The position numbers and the translations under genes were made by a program. From positions 1 to 36,760 of the forward strand of contig JAUXAG010000023.1 of assembly GCA_030614915.1 (NCBI GenBank): a stretch of DNA of 36,760 nucleotides, written 5' to 3'. Each line of letters starts with the position of its first letter. Position 1 is the first letter of the stretch. Shown piece after piece: positions 3,248 through 23,714 of the stretch. The notes beneath the pieces were generated by a model, which was not told the origin of the DNA, made no database searches, and worked only from the letters and a program-made list of their open reading frames with translations. This DNA is from Actinomycetes bacterium (GTDB taxonomy: Bacteria > Planctomycetota > Phycisphaerae > JAACET01).

Positions 3248-3515
3248 TTTCGTTCGTCCTCCTTCTATCTACGGCCCGGCTCAGGACCGAGCTACGCCCA
3301 CAGATTATACCGCTAGCTAATCTCGTATTCCATGCCCAGTGTGTTCAAGGTCAGCTAGAAGTGGGAAAGCCTGCTGGAATTAACAAGAAGGGCGTTTTTT
3401 GGCGGATTGAAACGCAATTTTGCTTGTTCAGCCGACAAAACTTGATTAGGATAGAGAAAATTTAGTAAGTGCTGCCTGACAATGGGAAAGTTGAGCCGTC
3501 TCACTCAAGCAGCCA

Positions 3516-13910: not shown

Positions 13911-16016
13911 CTATCTGCGTCTGGTTCGTAAAAGAAGCAATCCGCCGATCAGCATCAGGGCTAGGGTGGCTGGCTCGGGGGTGATAGTAAGTTGGCCATA
14001 GGCCGTATCGAAAAGGCCAGTGGTATCCGTCAGTTTCAAACTGATGTTGTAAGGACCTCCCACGCCGAGGCCGAGGGATGTGAGCTGCGCGTAACTGAGA
14101 ACACACAATGCTTGCCCGCCTGCGTCTGTTTCGTAGACACCATTGTCGTCCAGGTCCCACAGGTAGGAGGCGATTTCGCTGTCATCGTTCAGGTCCATCG
14201 ACCAGGAGGCGTCCAAGGTAAGCGCTTCCCCTTCGTCGATGACATACGGGCCGCCCGGGTCAGCCCAAGGCGCACAAGGTGTGCCGGCTGGGTCAACAAC
14301 TGCCTCGGCCCTGCGCCAGGCATCGATTACGTCGGTGAAACGACCTCTCACCTCTGAGGATTCGGCCGCGGCCAGTGCCCAAGCATCATGAAGCTGCCCT
14401 CTGATGGTTGCTACGACCGGTGCTGTATATACGAGTTCTGGGCTCACCAGACCCCACCAGCCAGGGCCGTGAACCGTAGAGTCATCCAGGGCTTTGGCGC
14501 ATTCGAGGTAAAAGTCAAGCATCGGTTCGGAGGCATTTCCAAAAAGCTTTTGGCAGGCCGGCCGTAAAATCTGCTCAGCCGTAAGGTCCGGATTCCACAT
14601 GCCCTTGGACACAACATAGGCCAGCGGCCAGCGGATCGGCGCGTCCTCTATTACCTCAACTGAATAGCCCTCATAATACATATACCTGATGCCCTGATCT
14701 CTGTAAAACTGCAGATCCCGCAATGCCGCATCGCCCGGCACATAGGGGACATTTAGCCATCCGCCCCAGCTGGGCAGATAGTATTCGTAGATACCGCTGA
14801 CGTCTGCGTCAGACATCTGCCACTTCGCAAGGTTGGTCTTCCAGGGCCCCTTGGGGATGACACCATCCCATTGACAGGACGGATCGTCCAGCGAATGGAC
14901 ACCACAAGTGTTGTTAATCAGAAATACCTGCACACCCGGATCGGCCTTCTCGGCGGTCAGCGGCGGCGCCGCAGACGTCCCGGCGTAGGCTATGAAGGCA
15001 ACATCCTTATCAGGGTGAGTCGTACGCAAGCCGGCGACCACGATATTGGAAAAGGACACGGTCTGTGCGGCGGGATTGGCCCCCATTGCGCTGCAGGACG
15101 CGCACTCGCAGAACCCTGCGCCGTCATTCGCGCTCAGGCTGAACATTACCTGGGACGAGTCGGCGTTAAAATGGGCACGAGCAAGGTCGATGGCTCTGGC
15201 CTGAACCTCCGCATTGGAAAAGCATATCTGCCATGCCCCCGTAGACGTTCGCACACCGCCTATCAGGGAGTACCATTCGGGGTGGTCATTGAAGAACTGA
15301 GCCGGTGGGTACATCTGGTAGTAATTATGCGTAATATGAAACGGAGTGCCGCCATTACCCCAAGAAAGTCCATCAAAGTCGGGATGGCTAACGCCGCCGT
15401 AGGGGTGCTGAAAAAAGAAAGTTGAGCGCTTCTCGAAGGCAGGCGAGGTGTCGATGTTAATATTACTTACAACCAGATCGTCATAATGCGCCACAACATG
15501 CCAATCCGGATCCGGGCCATAAGGTTCGGTTCCCAGCTTCTCCAAAAACATGTCTATAGCGTGTCTTGTGCCGGAATAGGCCTGAGCGTCATTGCCTGCA
15601 ATCACAAGATCATTGCCGACTTGTTTCGCCACGACCCGTTCACCCCCCGGGTAGCTCTGGGGAATGTTGATGCCCACGGTTTGAGCTGCTTGCGGTCCGA
15701 CAAGAATGAGCGGGCCTTGTGGGCTTGTCGACAGGTCAACAACGGACAAAGTAACGCCTGTCATCCGGTTGATGTAATCTTGAAGCCTGTTTGCGTCGGC
15801 AATAGCGCCTGGCTCGTCATATGCGATTGTCATTTGCGCCTGATCGTTAATGACAACGTTGACATCCCCCGCTCGAACGACCTGTCCGGCAACAGTCAAA
15901 AACAAGACTTGAGAAAATGCCATTAAGAGCACTGATTGCATGGGTCGCGTTAGCTTCCAATGTCGGCGGCTTGGCATTGATACTTGTAATGGTTCAGGGT
16001 GGATTTTCTGAAGCAT
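13911..16016 (-). CDS. DUF4838 exported protein with PKD-like domain and PEP-CTERM sorting signal
   Basis: A 701-residue exported protein. The signal region is MQSVLLMAFSQVLFLTVAGQ with a likely cleavage site near VVRA. Residues about 55-190 form the alpha-glucuronidase-N-like fold seen before DUF4838 (ANRLQDYINRMTGV, GERVVAKQVGNDLVIAGND, GTRHAIDMFLEKLG). The DUF4838 core follows, with STFFFQHPYGG, HPEWYSL, VMFSLSANDGAGFCECASC and YEYYLPSWGGW. A PKD-like segment (ADPGGPYVIDEGEALTLDAS) precedes the sorting tail ending TPEPATLALMLIGG with a final TRRR. Members are predicted polysaccharide-active surface proteins, but the reaction is not established. AGGAGAGAG precedes ATG 16016. It is paralogous to the gene at 17466-19994. 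Confidence 0.92.
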   Translation of the reverse strand: MLQKIHPEPLQVSMPSRRHWKLTRPMQSVLLMAFSQVLFLTVAGQVVRAGDVNVVINDQAQMTIAYDEPGAIADANRLQDYINRMTGVTLSVVDLSTSPQGPLILVGPQAAQTVGINIPQSYPGGERVVAKQVGNDLVIAGNDAQAYSGTRHAIDMFLEKLGTEPYGPDPDWHVVAHYDDLVVSNINIDTSPAFEKRSTFFFQHPYGGVSHPDFDGLSWGNGGTPFHITHNYYQMYPPAQFFNDHPEWYSLIGGVRTSTGAWQICFSNAEVQARAIDLARAHFNADSSQVMFSLSANDGAGFCECASCSAMGANPAAQTVSFSNIVVAGLRTTHPDKDVAFIAYAGTSAAPPLTAEKADPGVQVFLINNTCGVHSLDDPSCQWDGVIPKGPWKTNLAKWQMSDADVSGIYEYYLPSWGGWLNVPYVPGDAALRDLQFYRDQGIRYMYYEGYSVEVIEDAPIRWPLAYVVSKGMWNPDLTAEQILRPACQKLFGNASEPMLDFYLECAKALDDSTVHGPGWWGLVSPELVYTAPVVATIRGQLHDAWALAAAESSEVRGRFTDVIDAWRRAEAVVDPAGTPCAPWADPGGPYVIDEGEALTLDASWSMDLNDDSEIASYLWDLDDNGVYETDAGGQALCVLSYAQLTSLGLGVGGPYNISLKLTDTTGLFDTAYGQLTITPEPATLALMLIGGLLLLRTRRR

Positions 16017-16280: not shown

Positions 16281-17300
16281 TCAGCGATTTCTTCTAGAAA
16301 TTGATCTAAGACCTTTTTGTTTCCTTCGTAAAGACACGGCGCCCCAGGTCAGGAAAAACACGACTCCCAAGGTCAGGAAAAGTAGCAAACCCGACGGTTC
16401 GGGGACGTAATACACACCGATGCTATTTCCCACACATCGTTCTGTCGTTAGAGTACTCCAACCCCCACTCCCGCGGGGACTATTGAGAAGCTCACACTTG
16501 TCCGAGCCAGAAGCATCGGGGTCCCACCAGGCCATCGTCGTCGAGCCCCCACCGTCCATGTTGATCCCGTTATAAGCCCCGAAGTATTTCAACCATGATC
16601 CCAGTTCCTGAGTCGTAGACCCTTCGCTGTCCGGCTGCCGCCCGTCGATGGTCGTGAAATACACGTATCGGCTGTTCTGGGAAAGCCCCGTGCCGGTCCG
16701 AGGATGAAGATCGTCCCCGCTAGGCAATGGGTTCCCTTCGCTCAGGCAAAAGCCAAAGCCACTGACCGCCGTCTGCACATTGCTGATATTATAGAGCTCC
16801 GCAGTTATGGCCATACTAATGGTCCCGTTTTTCTCGAAAATCAGAGATGGTCTTAGGGAGCCTCTCGAGACCAGTATGCCTTCCGATACAGCCAAACCGC
16901 CCACATCCACCACGGTTTCCAGGTTCCATTCGCTCGGAATCCACGGATTCCAGAAATCGGCGTTAATGGCCACTACCAACTTCTTATCGGTTGCCTGAGA
17001 TTCACGGATGAAGTCGCGAGTTATCTCCCGCTGGACTTCCGTGCGGGTCGACATCCAGGGCTTGTATCGCGGGGTGGTATAGAAGCTCAGGTCCGGCGTC
17101 GCGGTATCGATCTGCATGGTATTGATGACCATTTTGCGCGGACTGCTAACAGTAACCTCCACATGCTTGATTCCCGGATAAAGCTCTACCGCCCCGCTCC
17201 AATTATGGGTCCCGACCTGGCCGTAAGTAAGGCAAGGCAGGAGCAGGGAAAGAATCAAGGCCCTTACTAATAAAGCAAAGCTGGCTCGTAATGGTCTCAT
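16281..17300 (-). CDS. Phosphodiester glycosidase (NAGPA) domain protein with PEP-CTERM tail
   Basis: A 339-residue exported protein. The signal peptide is FALLVRALILSLLLPCLTYG at residues 8-27. Most of the chain is an NAGPA (PF09992-type) domain, the fold of the enzyme that removes the GlcNAc cap from phosphodiester-linked sugars. The hallmark is FGAYNGINMDGGGSTTMAWW near residue 240-258, along with KKLVVAINADFWNPW. The C-terminus reads VPEPSGLLLFLTLG, then a hydrophobic helix and SLRRKQK, a PEP-CTERM sorting signal. The protein would therefore be anchored or released on the surface by an exosortase/archaeosortase system, which is not in this window. A ribosome-binding site AAAGG precedes ATG 17300. 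It sits between the two DUF4838 paralogues in the same orientation and may act on the same glycan. Confidence 0.92.
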   Translation of the reverse strand: MRPLRASFALLVRALILSLLLPCLTYGQVGTHNWSGAVELYPGIKHVEVTVSSPRKMVINTMQIDTATPDLSFYTTPRYKPWMSTRTEVQREITRDFIRESQATDKKLVVAINADFWNPWIPSEWNLETVVDVGGLAVSEGILVSRGSLRPSLIFEKNGTISMAITAELYNISNVQTAVSGFGFCLSEGNPLPSGDDLHPRTGTGLSQNSRYVYFTTIDGRQPDSEGSTTQELGSWLKYFGAYNGINMDGGGSTTMAWWDPDASGSDKCELLNSPRGSGGWSTLTTERCVGNSIGVYYVPEPSGLLLFLTLGVVFFLTWGAVSLRRKQKGLRSISRRNR

Positions 17301-17347: not shown

Positions 17348-17465
17348 TTGTTTCCTAGACACCATCTAGGAGGCGATTTCATTGTCATCGTTCAGGTCCA
17401 TCGAGCAGGAGGCGTCCAAGGTGCGTTTCCCCTACGTCGATGACATACAGTCCGCCCGGGTCAGC
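17348..17465 (-). pseudogene. Decayed PKD/PEP-CTERM-encoding tail of the distal DUF4838 gene
   Basis: Directly downstream of the stop of the 842-residue DUF4838 gene the DNA still aligns with the PKD-coding region of its paralogue (14140-14270). Compared with the paralogue, the Trp codon TGG after GTPxAP is TGA (17466-17468). Further on, two bases are deleted in the GAAGCGCTTACC region and about 19 bases are lost around the codons for YLWDLDD. A Tyr codon in GVYE is also a TAG. No PEP-CTERM sequence follows. Translation through here is not possible, so this is a relic. The rest of the gap holds only the upstream region of the phosphodiester glycosidase. Confidence 0.85.
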
Positions 17466-19994
17466 TCAAGGCGCGGCAGGCGTGCCAGCCGGGTTAATAA
17501 TTTGCTCCGTCCTACCCCAGCACTCGATTACGTCGTTGACACGACGGATCACCTCTGGGGATTCGGCCGCAGCCATTTGTTTGGCCTTATCAAGCAGCCT
17601 TCTGATCGTTTTTACGACCGGTGCTGTATATACGTTCTGAGCCGACAGCATACCCCACCAGCCAGGGCCGTGATACGGAGAGTCCTCCAAGGCCGTGGCG
17701 CATTCGAGGTAGAAGGAAAGCATCGGTTCGGAGGCATTTCCAAAAAGCCGCTGGGTGGCTGGCCGCAAGATCTGCTCAGCCGTAAGGTCCGGATTCCACA
17801 TGCCCTTGGAGGCGACATAGGCCAGCGGCCAGCGGATCGGCGCGTCCGCCGGTACCTCTGATTGATCGCCCTGATAATACATATATCTGATGCCTTCATC
17901 TCTGTAAAACCGCAGATCACGCAATGCCGCATCGCCCGGCACATAGGGGACATTTACCCATCCGCCGAAGCTGGGCAGATAGTATTCGTAGATACCGCTA
18001 AGGTCCACGCCCGTTGCCTGCCAGCCATCAAGCCACACCTTCCAGCCCGCCTTGCCGGCGGCACCTGCTTGACAGGACGGATCGTCCACCGAATGGACTG
18101 GACAAGTCTGGTCAACCAGCCACACCTCTACGCCGGGATCGGCCTGCACGCCCTGCGGCGGCGTATGCGTACCGAGGTAAGCCAAAAATGCTACGTCCTT
18201 GTCCGGATGGGTCTGACGCAAGCCGGCGGCCACGATATTGGCAAAGGCCAGGTTCTGTCCGCTGATATTGTTCCCCAATTGGCTGCAGGGGACGCACTCG
18301 CAGAACCCCAAGCCGTCATTGGCCGTCAGGCTGAACATTACCTGGGACGAGTCGTTGTCAAAATGGGCACGAGCAAGGTCGATAGCTCTGGCCTGAACCT
18401 CCGCATTGGAAAGGCATATCTGCGAAGTCTGCCGAACACCGTTGACCAGGGCGTACCATTCGGGGTTGCTAGCAAAGAACTGACTCGCTGGGTACATCTG
18501 GTAGTAATTATGATCAAGATGAAACCGTGTGCCGCCGTTGCCCCAAGAAGGTCCGTCAAAGTCGGGATGGCTACCGCCGTGGGGGTGCTGAAAAAAGAAA
18601 GTTGAGCGAGCTTCGAAGGCAGGCGAGGTGTCGATATTAATATTGCCGACAGCCAGCTGGTTATGCTGCGCCACAACATGCCAATTCGGGTCCGGGCCAT
18701 AGAATTCGGTTCCCAGCTCCGCCAGAAACATGTCTATAGCGTATCTTGTGCCTTTATAAGCAGGATGAGGGCCCAACCGAGCATCATTGCCCGCGATCAC
18801 AAGATCATTGCCGACTCTTTTGACCACGACTCGTTGATCCCCCGGGTAGCTCTGGACAATGTCGATGCCCACGGTTTGAGCTGCCTGATACCCGAGCAGA
18901 ATGCGCGGGGAGCCTTCTGGGACTTGCGATAGGTGAGCAATGGGCAAAGAAACGCCTGTCATTCGCTCGAGGTAATCTCGAAGCCTCTTTGCGCCCGCAA
19001 AAGCAGCTGGCTCGTACTCATGTGTGATTGTTATACGGGCCTTGCCGTCACTGACAAGGACGAGCTCATTCGCTAAGGTCATAGTGACCGGCTTGGCCAT
19101 AATGGCTGGCCCGGACGCATACTCCATCTCGAAGTTATCCAGGAGCATCGACGCATCCGTACTGTTTATCGCCATTCCTGCAAAACCGCCGCTCAGCGCA
19201 GGGCCGTTGGGGCCGGGGGTATCGATGGTGCCATCATAGGTATGGGCTAGCCTGCCAAGTACAGGCCCGCCGATCTCCGTGACCGTGAAGGTAACAGTAG
19301 TCTCGTCGTAGGCGGCCTTGTAGTGGGCCTCGAGCAGAAGTTCGTACCAGGTATCTGATTTGAAACCGGGAAGTTTGTTTCCTGGGGCAGCCGTAAGAGA
19401 CATGTGTATACCGGTATTTGAATTGACTATCGCCCCCCGGTACATGTTTTTGCCGCCATGCGAGCTGACATCGGGCACATTCTGAGCATTGAGGAACACA
19501 CCGGCATGCTGAACGTTATGCCAGCTGGTTCCCAGCTTGATAAAATCTGCTTGTACTCTTACGTATGGTTCACCCGCGTGAGCTTTAACACTAGCCCAGG
19601 ACCCATCGTAAGTTGGCTGAACAGCCTTGACCACTTCGTGCGCGACACCCGAAATAGTTACCGTAGTTTTCTCTACAGGACCCCTGCTGGCTTTCACCCA
19701 GTTGAGCTCACCCGCAAAGCTGTCCAGGTCCTGTCCGTCCGTATAACTGTTGAAGTTATCCGTGTAGTCCGCTCCAACGCCCTGTCCGGCAACAGTCAAA
19801 AATAAGACTTGAGAAAATATCATTAACAAGAACATCGTTCGCATGGGTCGCGTTAGTTTCCAACGTCGGCGGCTTACCATTGATACTTGTAATGGTTCAG
19901 CGTGGATTGGGCGCAGGCCCAGTTCCGCTAAACAACTGATTCGTCCGACCGCCGGGGGGTTCTTCGTATTCCGAGCGTGGATTTTCTGAAGCAT
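17466..19994 (-). CDS. DUF4838 exported protein with N-terminal LamG-like domain; C-terminus truncated
   Basis: An 842-residue paralogue of the 13911-16016 product, and longer at the N-terminus. After an extended leader and signal segment (TMFLLMIFSQVLFLTVAG) comes a 190-residue beta-rich domain of concanavalin-like/LamG type (DNFNSYTDGQDLDSF, VRVQADFIKLGTSWHNV, TFTVTEIGGPVLGRLAHTYD, SMLLDNFEMEYASG). It is followed by the glucuronidase-N-like fold (RLRDYLERMTGVSLPIA) and the DUF4838 core (STFFFQHPHGG, VMFSLTANDGLGFCECVPC, YEYYLPSFGGW). The chain ends at INPAGTPAAP with a TGA where the paralogue has Trp, so the PKD-like segment and PEP-CTERM tail are lost. It could be secreted but not sorted by the exosortase system. 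The ribosome-binding sequence AGGAGAGAG before ATG 19994 matches the paralogue's leader. Confidence 0.88.
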   Translation of the reverse strand: MLQKIHARNTKNPPAVGRISCLAELGLRPIHAEPLQVSMVSRRRWKLTRPMRTMFLLMIFSQVLFLTVAGQGVGADYTDNFNSYTDGQDLDSFAGELNWVKASRGPVEKTTVTISGVAHEVVKAVQPTYDGSWASVKAHAGEPYVRVQADFIKLGTSWHNVQHAGVFLNAQNVPDVSSHGGKNMYRGAIVNSNTGIHMSLTAAPGNKLPGFKSDTWYELLLEAHYKAAYDETTVTFTVTEIGGPVLGRLAHTYDGTIDTPGPNGPALSGGFAGMAINSTDASMLLDNFEMEYASGPAIMAKPVTMTLANELVLVSDGKARITITHEYEPAAFAGAKRLRDYLERMTGVSLPIAHLSQVPEGSPRILLGYQAAQTVGIDIVQSYPGDQRVVVKRVGNDLVIAGNDARLGPHPAYKGTRYAIDMFLAELGTEFYGPDPNWHVVAQHNQLAVGNINIDTSPAFEARSTFFFQHPHGGSHPDFDGPSWGNGGTRFHLDHNYYQMYPASQFFASNPEWYALVNGVRQTSQICLSNAEVQARAIDLARAHFDNDSSQVMFSLTANDGLGFCECVPCSQLGNNISGQNLAFANIVAAGLRQTHPDKDVAFLAYLGTHTPPQGVQADPGVEVWLVDQTCPVHSVDDPSCQAGAAGKAGWKVWLDGWQATGVDLSGIYEYYLPSFGGWVNVPYVPGDAALRDLRFYRDEGIRYMYYQGDQSEVPADAPIRWPLAYVASKGMWNPDLTAEQILRPATQRLFGNASEPMLSFYLECATALEDSPYHGPGWWGMLSAQNVYTAPVVKTIRRLLDKAKQMAAAESPEVIRRVNDVIECWGRTEQIINPAGTPAAP

Positions 19995-21065: not shown

Positions 21066-21167
21066 TCAGGCAGAACGTCTACGCCTCAGGAAAGCCAAGC
21101 CACCCAGAAGCAGCAGGGCCAGCGTGGCGGGTTCGGGGACTTCGGCGAACGCTAGCTCTCGTCGCCG
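21066..21167 (-). pseudogene. Orphan PEP-CTERM sorting tail (gene relic)
   Basis: On the minus strand, codons 21143-21066 encode FAEVPEPATLALLLLGG, then LAFLRRRRSA and a TGA stop. This is a complete PEP-CTERM signal: Pro-Glu-Pro, a hydrophobic helix and an Arg cluster. Upstream the frame meets a TAA at 21168-ish (ATC GAA TAA), and no protein body of matching size is present, so it is the 3' end of a deleted exported-protein gene. A terminator-like hairpin remains behind it. It may be a recombination remnant from the same expansion that made the DUF4838/NAGPA cluster. Confidence 0.8.
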
Positions 21168-21225: not shown

Positions 21226-21302
21226 AGTCCTCCCGAGCAGTAGGGAGGGGCGATGGATTATTGTTGGTTTTCTCGGCCGACGATGCGGTAATTTTGCCTG
21301 AT
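21226..21302 (-). pseudogene. Relic of a diguanylate cyclase 3' end with its hairpin
   Basis: This stretch aligns with the last codons and trailer of the diguanylate cyclase gene (22335-22400). On the minus strand it encodes a GK..IVGRENQQ-like end with a stop at 21258-21260, corresponding to GKNLIYIVGRENHQ and the stop at 22365-22367. The trailer hairpin is also conserved: CCTCCC and GGGAGG at 21229-21234 and 21243-21248 here, against 22336-22341 and 22350-22355. The remainder of the gene is missing. It therefore looks like a partial duplication, or the remains of a second cyclase gene. Confidence 0.7.
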
Positions 21303-21376: not shown

Positions 21377-21979
21377 CTATTGAACGTCGTCTCCGGCAGG
21401 CTTGTTGGGCAACGGTACTTTCCGCCACACGCATTTTCTCTCATTCGATATCGACCCATGGTTGAGGATGTCGATAAGCAGGTTGCTGATTACGACAACA
21501 GAAAGTGCATGAATGGGGCTGAACTTGACATGCTGGTGCATTAAAACATTGCGGAGGCCTTTGAACATGCCGGAGATGAGCAGCCGGATTCCATCTTGCT
21601 CGTTCCTGTCGCTCTGGCTGCTCAGATCGTTTATCTTGATGATGGGCTCTCTTGGATACATCTGTTCCTTTTTGTCGTATTCGAACGATAGCACATCATC
21701 AACAAGTTGGCTGCCGTAGTTTTCAGTCTTTCCGAGTCGTTTCAGCTCCATTTCTATAGATATCAGAGCCGCGCGGGCGGCATCTGGATACGCTGCCTTT
21801 CGGAATAGGGCGAGGGCCTCAGTCAGCCTGCCGTCACCTTCGTAAAGTGACAGTAGAGCATTGCAGAGCTGCTGCCAGTGTGCTCCCAACACACCGCATC
21901 CCGGGCAGTAGTTGAACTCTGCTTGGGTAACTTCAACCTCCATCCCACACTCCTCACATTTGAAGGTACCCTTGCTCAT
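21377..21979 (-). CDS. Zinc-ribbon protein with TIGR02391/HEPN-like C-terminal domain
   Basis: A 200-residue protein in two parts. Residues 8-28 hold a zinc ribbon with Cys8, Cys11, Cys25 and Cys28 (KCEECGMEVEV...NYCPGCG). From about residue 85 the chain resembles the TIGR02391/Ymh family of uncharacterised proteins, with an acidic-helical part, IIKINDLSSQSDRNEQDGIRLLISGMFKGLRN spread over 113-144, and the RNVLMH motif at 143-148. R-N-x3-H is the HEPN-type RNase signature, and this family commonly carries it. The frame continues to a TTG at 22036, but ATG 21979 puts the zinc ribbon at the N-terminus and is preferred; no strong ribosome-binding site is seen for either. A defence or abortive-infection role is possible but unproven. 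It stands as a single gene between relics and the cyclase. Confidence 0.7.
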   Translation of the reverse strand: MSKGTFKCEECGMEVEVTQAEFNYCPGCGVLGAHWQQLCNALLSLYEGDGRLTEALALFRKAAYPDAARAALISIEMELKRLGKTENYGSQLVDDVLSFEYDKKEQMYPREPIIKINDLSSQSDRNEQDGIRLLISGMFKGLRNVLMHQHVKFSPIHALSVVVISNLLIDILNHGSISNERKCVWRKVPLPNKPAGDDVQ

Positions 21980-22335
21980 GGTTATCGATTCGTATCTTTG
22001 CCCAACAATGTTCAGGCCGATCCGCTTTCTGAACAACTGATTCGTCCATATGATGCTGACTGGAATCTAGCCATCCAAATCCCAAAAGAAAAGGAAAAAA
22101 GGTATTTTTAGCCGCATCCCCAAGCCAAGGCCCATCCCTGTCAGACATTTTCACCGGTCCCAATCACCTCGACCTATCTGGCAACAGCAGGCGTAATAGT
22201 CGGGTTCGCGATAATGATGACCCTGGACGTGGCGCTGGGCTAAATAGTCTCGCAAATGGCTCTTAACTCAAGAATTTCTCGATTGTTCGAAGAGGAGAGA
22301 TTACTGCTAAAGCAGTGATAAGCCGCGGTCGTCCT

Positions 22336-22355
22336 CCTCCCGACCAGTAGGGAGG
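22336..22355 (-). terminator. Terminator-like hairpin after the diguanylate cyclase gene
   Basis: CCTCCC and GGGAGG form a perfect 6-bp stem with an 8-base loop, nine bases after the stop at 22365. There is no T run, so it could be a Rho-dependent or RNA-stability element. Its close copy at 21229-21248 is part of the duplicated relic. The remaining 22037-22335 region contains a short CTGCTAAAGCAG palindrome at 22306-22317 and no gene that could be recognised. Confidence 0.4.
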
Positions 22356-22364
22356 GGTGCTGGA

Positions 22365-23714
22365 TTATTGGTGGTTTTCTCGTCCGACGATGTAGATGAG
22401 GTTTTTGCCGCTGGCCTTGGCCTGCAATAGAGCGTCGTCGGCCCGGGCAAAGAGATCGTCCACGCTTGCAGCATCCCAGGGGAAACTGGCCAATCCGCCA
22501 CTGATGGTCAGGGTGCCCCTGGCGTCGGGGCCCAGGCACTTGTAATCGTGGGCGTTGACGGTGCGGCGGAAACGCTCGCTGAGAGAAAAGGCGGTCTCGG
22601 GGTGTCGCGAATTTGGCTGACGCCGCTTTCCGGCGTCCCAGAAGATCATAACGAATTCGTCACCGCCGAAACGGCCCACTAAGTCGTGCTCTCGTGAGCA
22701 GCGTCGCATAAGGTCGGCGGTCTCGCGGAGGACCTCGTCTCCGGTGGCGTGGCCGTAGGTGTCGTTGTAGCGCTTGAAGTCGTCCACGTCAAAGAGCAAA
22801 ACGGTTACTTCAAAACGCTCGTCACGGGCCCTGGCCAAGACCTGCTCGGTGAACTCATAGACGTAACGGCGATTGTAGAGGCCGGTGAGCTCATCAGTGA
22901 CGGCTAACTTCTGCAGGGCTGCAGTTTCTCGAGAGATGTCCAGGAGGGGCGCGAGGAGCTGAGCTATCCGAGGGAGCAGGTGCGGGAGAGTCTGGGAGTC
23001 GGGCTGTCCGGACTTTGGCGGGCCCAGACGAATCAACAACTTTCCACCGTGGGCTAACTGTGCGGTATGCTCGGCCTGGACTTTGGCAGGTGCGCGGGCG
23101 GGGGGCTGTTGATCAATCAATTGTAACTGGACCCACTTGGCGGCGAGTTTTTCGGCCAATAATCCTTCGGCCCGGGTTAGTAGAACTTCGGTTGGTGCTC
23201 GGCCGGCCCGGAGCAACTCCTCGCACAAGTCGTAAGCGTCGGGAACAATCTGCAGGGCCTGATCCGGGGCAGCAGACGGTTGGACTTCTTGAAGGGGGGC
23301 TTGGACGGCCGGGGGAGGCTGTGTCTGAGCAGCGGCGGTCGTGCTGGATAGTTGGCCATTGAGTGCCCGCATGAATTCGTCGCGGGTAATCGGTTCAATA
23401 AGATAATCATCGGCTCCGGCGGCCAGTGCCCGGCGAGCCAAGGGCTCATGTATGGGCTTGCAGGAGAGGATGATCTTGACCTTGGAGTCAGTGGCCCGCA
23501 GGGCGCCGACGGCCAGGCTGCTTTGGTCGGCTGTGCCGGCGATACCGCCGAGGACCAACTGGTACTTATTGGCCGAGGCCTCAGCGATGGCCTCCATCCA
23601 GGTTGGGACGCTCTTGATGCGTCCGGCGAACAGCTCGGCCAGCCAGCCGAGCAGACGGGCATCGGCAGCGACAATTAAAACCGGCAAGGGATTTTTGGAC
23701 TCGTTGGGGCTCAC
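22365..23714 (-). CDS. GGDEF diguanylate cyclase with degenerate receiver domain
   Basis: A 449-residue signalling protein. Residues 10-120 look like a CheY-type receiver (PVLIVAADARLLGWL, IILSCKPIHEP, AAGADDYLIEPITRDEF) but the phosphoacceptor region reads YQLVLGGIAG, without Asp, so it is a pseudo-receiver. A Pro/Gln-rich linker and a poorly defined middle region lead to a GGDEF domain at about 270-440. The active motif GRFGGDEF is intact at 350-354, preceded by REHD at 341-344, five residues before it, which is the canonical RxxD product-inhibition site. It should make cyclic-di-GMP and be feedback inhibited. It overlaps nothing and lies 12 bases after the gene for a smaller receiver-like protein, so the two are probably co-transcribed and may work together. 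Confidence 0.9.
   Translation of the reverse strand: MSPNESKNPLPVLIVAADARLLGWLAELFAGRIKSVPTWMEAIAEASANKYQLVLGGIAGTADQSSLAVGALRATDSKVKIILSCKPIHEPLARRALAAGADDYLIEPITRDEFMRALNGQLSSTTAAAQTQPPPAVQAPLQEVQPSAAPDQALQIVPDAYDLCEELLRAGRAPTEVLLTRAEGLLAEKLAAKWVQLQLIDQQPPARAPAKVQAEHTAQLAHGGKLLIRLGPPKSGQPDSQTLPHLLPRIAQLLAPLLDISRETAALQKLAVTDELTGLYNRRYVYEFTEQVLARARDERFEVTVLLFDVDDFKRYNDTYGHATGDEVLRETADLMRRCSREHDLVGRFGGDEFVMIFWDAGKRRQPNSRHPETAFSLSERFRRTVNAHDYKCLGPDARGTLTISGGLASFPWDAASVDDLFARADDALLQAKASGKNLIYIVGRENHQ

Follow-up and report, generated by a model that had tools for sequence, protein, structure and literature searches.

Two neighboring genes in a 36,760-nt window (the whole stretch of DNA analyzed here) encode DUF4838 proteins, and one of them, gene B, has probably lost the PKD/PEP-CTERM tail that the other, gene A, retains. 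The best explanation, in which we have good confidence, is that both belong to a set of exported, recombining DUF4838 copies, that a TGA stop shared by three of them severed the tail, and that the tail decayed afterwards. On this reading, gene B is an ordinary case of tail decay within a gene family whose members recombine.

Gene B and the remnant of its tail

The initial annotation proposed that the product of gene B ends at a TGA where its paralog encodes Trp. Codon comparison on the minus strand confirms this: B reads GCG CCT TGA GCT GAC CCG, and A reads GCG CCT TGG GCT GAC CCG (Table 1). The B protein ends in ...TPAAP; the A protein has ...TPCAP at the same point, then the TGG codon and ADPGGPYVIDEG..., followed by the PKD region and a PEP-CTERM end. 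Past its stop, B continues to match the PKD coding DNA of A for approximately 115 nt, down to about position 17349, after which no similarity is found. The match is 88% identical over 123 nt spanning the stop (E = 1e-38 in a genome search), far beyond chance. Nucleotide alignment and profile searches also bear out the decay described for this remnant: relative to A, 2 nt are missing between 17423 and 17422 and 19 nt between 17367 and 17366, and a TAC codon has become TAG (Tyr to stop) at 17357-17355. With 21 nt missing in all, the reading frame recovers beyond the second deletion, yet it contains additional stops. A profile search found no PEP-CTERM in the B protein or in the DNA between B and the NAGPA gene, and the C-terminus of B does not feature the PEP motif, hydrophobic stretch and basic end that characterize the signal. 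Loss of the tail should take B out of exosortase processing.

Table 1. Positions of the DUF4838 genes, their tails and the aligned stop codons (window coordinates unless a locus is named)
Feature	Position	Strand	Remarks
Gene A, 701-aa DUF4838 protein, PKD + PEP-CTERM tail intact	13911-16016	-	TIGR02595 above cut-off
Intact PKD/PEP-CTERM tail of A, ...PEPATLALMLIGGLLLLRTRRR	13911-14267	-	TGG at 14267-14265
NAGPA (phosphodiester glycosidase) protein with PEP-CTERM	16281-17300	-	Between A and B; ATG at 17300
Decayed PKD remnant of B tail	17349-17465	-	DNA alignment to A; PEP-CTERM part gone
TGA stop of gene B	17468-17466	-	TGG in A, C17, C36; TGA also in C15, C1
Gene B, 842-aa DUF4838 protein	17466-19994	-	PF16126 1.4e-38; ends at TGA
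TGA of C15	L010 1644-1646		Separate contig from B
TGA of C1	On L013		Separate contig from B

Both genes match the DUF4838 profile PF16126 (scores of 133.3 and 118.3 bits; cut-off 26.6). The tail of A scores 20.2 bits against TIGR02595 (cut-off 16) and possesses the PEP motif, hydrophobic stretch and basic end. With one exosortase gene (PF09721 on C12, 182.9 bits) and 42 PEP-CTERM matches, the genome encodes the corresponding sorting system. By eye, B begins with a hydrophobic, signal-like N-terminal segment (MRTMFLLMIFSQVLFLTVAGQ), and it features an extra LamG-like segment N-terminal to the body.

The changes in B had been read as stepwise loss of the tail in one gene, with the body kept open. 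Loss through point changes and indels holds, as does the kept body: among 83 residues invariant in six outside relatives, B retains 71, A 69, C15 70 and C1 75, such that the body of B is kept as well as that of A. The restriction to one gene does not stand, since three of the six copies that bear or bore the tail have this TGA, which sits within a recombined stretch.

Elsewhere in the window, the NAGPA/PEP-CTERM gene is present as a single copy in the genome and itself stops at TGA. An orphan PEP-CTERM, VPEPATLALLLLGGLAFLRRRRSA*, lies at 21075-21140 (minus strand; PF07589, 29.2 bits) in a short open frame (33 codons) that lacks any preceding body; a further broken gene probably ended here. A Hypoth_Ymh (PF09509) gene at 21377-22036 (minus strand) is flanked by two direct copies of a 58-nt repeat (91% identical; 21228-21285 and 22335-22392). 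A genome search with the repeat stretch reported no third copy, and the arrangement looks like an insertion or local duplication.

DUF4838 copies and the origin of the tail

The initial annotation considered two paralogs, a frame that proved too narrow. The genome from which the window derives (G000, a draft of 2.56 Mb in 36 contigs, 96% complete) yields 18 matches to A, which correspond to about 11 DUF4838 copies: A, B, C17, C36, C15, C1, C6, C28, C27, C11 and a frameshifted C22. Further 5' fragments of DUF4838 genes lie at contig ends on C18 and C25. The PKD/PEP-CTERM tail is present, or was formerly present, in six copies (A, C17, C36, B, C15 and C1). In C28, C27 and C11, the body is followed by different LamG-like C-terminal segments, with no PEP-CTERM, and C6 passes into LamG-like repeats before leaving the contig end. 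C15, C17 and C36 begin inside the gene at contig ends. The frameshift of C22 (L017 2392-4162) falls near 3374-3408, and its 3' end has diverged. One LamG-like segment (DYTDNFNSYTDGQDLDSF...) stands before the body in B and after it in C6 and C11, which points to module shuffling among the copies. By eye, the 3' flanks past the stop are alike in C1 (L013, after about 4860) and C17 (L009, after about 1780), which suggests a duplication including the flank; those of A, C15 and C36 differ.

Pairwise dN/dS is 0.5-1.0 among the close copies and about 0.3 towards the C28 group, so the young copies are diverging fast, yet are not dead. Compared with the close copies, A and B, the body of C6 (L012 1220-2788) gives a dN/dS near 1 (0.90-0.98) at moderate dS, reflecting either unusually rapid protein divergence or a dS reduced by conversion.

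Of 18 DUF4838 proteins encoded by genomes of the same genus and the same class, none has a PEP-CTERM end, and the PKD/PEP-CTERM tail is also absent from the other DUF4838 relatives examined. The nearest outside relative, from a Pirellulaceae MAG (46%), has a tail-less architecture like that of C11. The initial annotation had envisaged related strains with an intact tail at this locus; none was found among the relatives examined, where same-genus genomes encode a DUF4838 of only ~32% identity or none at all, and matches across the genome collection reach at most 46%. One same-genus genome, G002, retains the neighboring DegT and nuclease-like genes, and a search of it returned no DUF4838 match. 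As its relatives are tail-less, the tail was probably gained in this lineage, then lost again in three copies.

A shared stop on a recombined tract

At the site of the B stop, TGG followed by an intact tail is found in A, C17 and C36, and TGA in B, C15 and C1. The 5' ends of C36 and C15 are 99% identical, and their identity falls to 65-73% over positions 1399-1549; that between B and C15 climbs to 90-95% from position 1549 onward. Eleven sites have a state common only to C15, B and C1, ten of which fall at body positions 1380-1623, with the TGA at 1608. AU tests on the 5' part (190-1300) group C36 with C15 and reject a grouping of the TGA copies (p 0.004); on the 3' part (1350-1735), they group C15, B and C1 and reject C36 with C15 (p 0.009). 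The mosaic identity and the AU tests thus suggest that the TGA did not originate three times, and that conversion or chimeric duplication passed its tract between copies. Past the TGA, affinities conflict, as B has GTA in common with C1 and TGC in common with C15, and the exact path of the tract is ambiguous. Broken as they are within the gene, C15, C17 and C36 may alternatively represent an assembly chimera of similar copies.

Behind the common TGA, the three tails are found in different states. C15 continues for 118 open codons to a PEP-CTERM above the Pfam cut-off. In C1, a further TAG stands three codons ahead of the TGA, and a deletion between GGCGG-like repeats, which keeps the frame, fuses DAGG to LALLRHRRVG and removes the PEP motif. 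Decay is heaviest in B, with its two deletions, TAG and vanished PEP-CTERM. Three decay states behind one stop suggest an order of events, in which the TGA most likely came first and separate decay followed in each copy.

We propose that an exported DUF4838 family, with a predicted fold like that of alpha-glucuronidases and hexosaminidases and with B as one member, underwent recent expansion with mutual recombination, and that the ancestor of some copies acquired a PKD and PEP-CTERM tail. A TGG-to-TGA nonsense mutation where the PKD module begins would then have severed the tail in one copy, and the tract carrying it would have reached B, C15 and C1 through duplication and gene conversion. The tail behind the stop would be free to decay, which it has done not visibly in C15, to an intermediate degree in C1 and furthest in B, while the bodies would be kept and still exported, without the exosortase signal.

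Alternatively, tail loss may have been adaptive, selected for a soluble or differently placed form of the enzyme. The conserved body of B after loss would fit such a relocation, as would a loss common to three copies and the existence of other tail-less copies with different C-terminal domains (C28, C27 and C11). However, recombination accounts for the sharing, the PEP-CTERM is itself linked to export (PMC10957091), and there is no sign that location or activity differs; we therefore consider selection for relocation unlikely. Nor is the change from a sorted to a released form, suggested by the initial annotation, supported, because the PEP-CTERM itself marks proteins for export (PMC10957091). 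After tail loss, the B protein could equally stay in the periplasm.

The stop is most likely the derived state, as it lies within the PKD module; at the aligned point, unrelated PKD/PEP-CTERM proteins of the class have no interruption (TAPTANAGGVY, PTAVAGGPY). The opposite direction, in which TGA was the ancestral end of the body and A, C17 and C36 acquired the tail by a TGA-to-TGG change, would accord with the tail-less state that is the rule among DUF4838 relatives. Yet the TPxAP preceding the codon aligns with the PKD start of the unrelated proteins, the bodies of relatives end elsewhere, and an in-frame tail would be needed behind the stop in all copies, which makes gain by stop loss distinctly unlikely. 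It is also quite improbable that recombination acts as a switch, moving the TGA tract between copies and each time turning the sorting tail of one copy off (or back on). Were this true, the exosortase-routed share of DUF4838 enzymes would be altered and the enzymes themselves kept.

The perfectly open 118-codon tail of C15, with its good PEP-CTERM, raises the question of leaky or programmed readthrough, whereby C15, and formerly B and C1, would yield a short exported protein for the most part, with small amounts of the tailed one. However, the changes private to the C15 tail have a neutral look (6 nonsynonymous to 3 synonymous, only 9 in all, versus a neutral 2.46:1), 9 substitutions would leave the frame open by chance with a probability of 0.80, and neither B nor C1 has kept its tail intact. 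The C15 data neither show nor need readthrough, which we regard as highly doubtful. Reassignment of TGA to Trp was considered and rejected, as prfB is present and seven other genes in the window stop at TGA. The one internal TGA seen in a same-genus relative of the neighboring DegT gene was likewise rejected as a code change, as the site lies upstream of the likely true start. Finally, the draft genome has contig breaks within the DUF4838 family, but it is barely credible that sequencing or assembly errors produced the TGA and the deletions: the same TGA and flanking diagnostic sites occur on three contigs, B decays far from contig ends, and the sequencing error that the initial annotation allowed for at the TGA is very unlikely because C15 and C1, on other contigs, carry the same codon.

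Comparison with known enzymes and sorting systems

A structural model of A was built from eight sequences (mean pLDDT 64; the body usable, the tail not). Foldseek (E 2e-9) matches it to alpha-glucuronidases of families GH67 and GH115 and to GH20/GH84 enzymes, with a VIA Z of about 15 over 450 residues at 4.5 Å. At the sequence level, solved structures gave no match. The shared GH67/GH115-like fold, as predicted by a model of mean pLDDT only 64, suggests that a glycosidase role is likely for DUF4838 proteins. The copies described here share their body domain with other DUF4838 (PF16126) proteins, the predicted fold being like GH67/GH115/GH20/GH84; they differ from the relatives examined in that some carry a PKD/PEP-CTERM tail, in this lineage only.

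Our analysis thus offers an ordered, single-genome example of how exosortase-sorted proteins may lose their tail, by a stop and then decay, with the enzyme body surviving. It also suggests that a sorting tail can be gained and then lost again within a single gene family specific to this lineage. Should bodies with and without the tail differ in behavior, A, C17 and C36 versus B, C15 and C1 would provide a natural comparison for the poorly known function of PEP-CTERM.

Exosortase reads the PEP-CTERM as an export/sorting signal, and at least one protein that carries it is a true exoprotein (PMC10957091). As in the PEP-CTERM/exosortase (EpsH) system (TIGR02595/PF07589), A features the motif, a transmembrane-like stretch and a basic end, in a genome with an exosortase. 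Homologous pairs in which one member has the tail and the other lacks it were described in 2006, as were the rapid paralogous expansion and the frequent duplication and loss of PEP-CTERM proteins (Haft et al. 2006, PMC1569441), so the phenomenon is already known. Unlike those cases, a single genome here contains three copies from which the steps of loss can be followed, with a stop that recombination has made common to them. The family also resembles known gene-conversion mosaics among paralogs and 3'-truncated genes, in that the nearest relative changes along the gene; it adds nothing to these except that the part switched off is a sorting tail. To the known phenomenon, our analysis adds the order in which the steps occurred and a stop that lies on a recombined tract.
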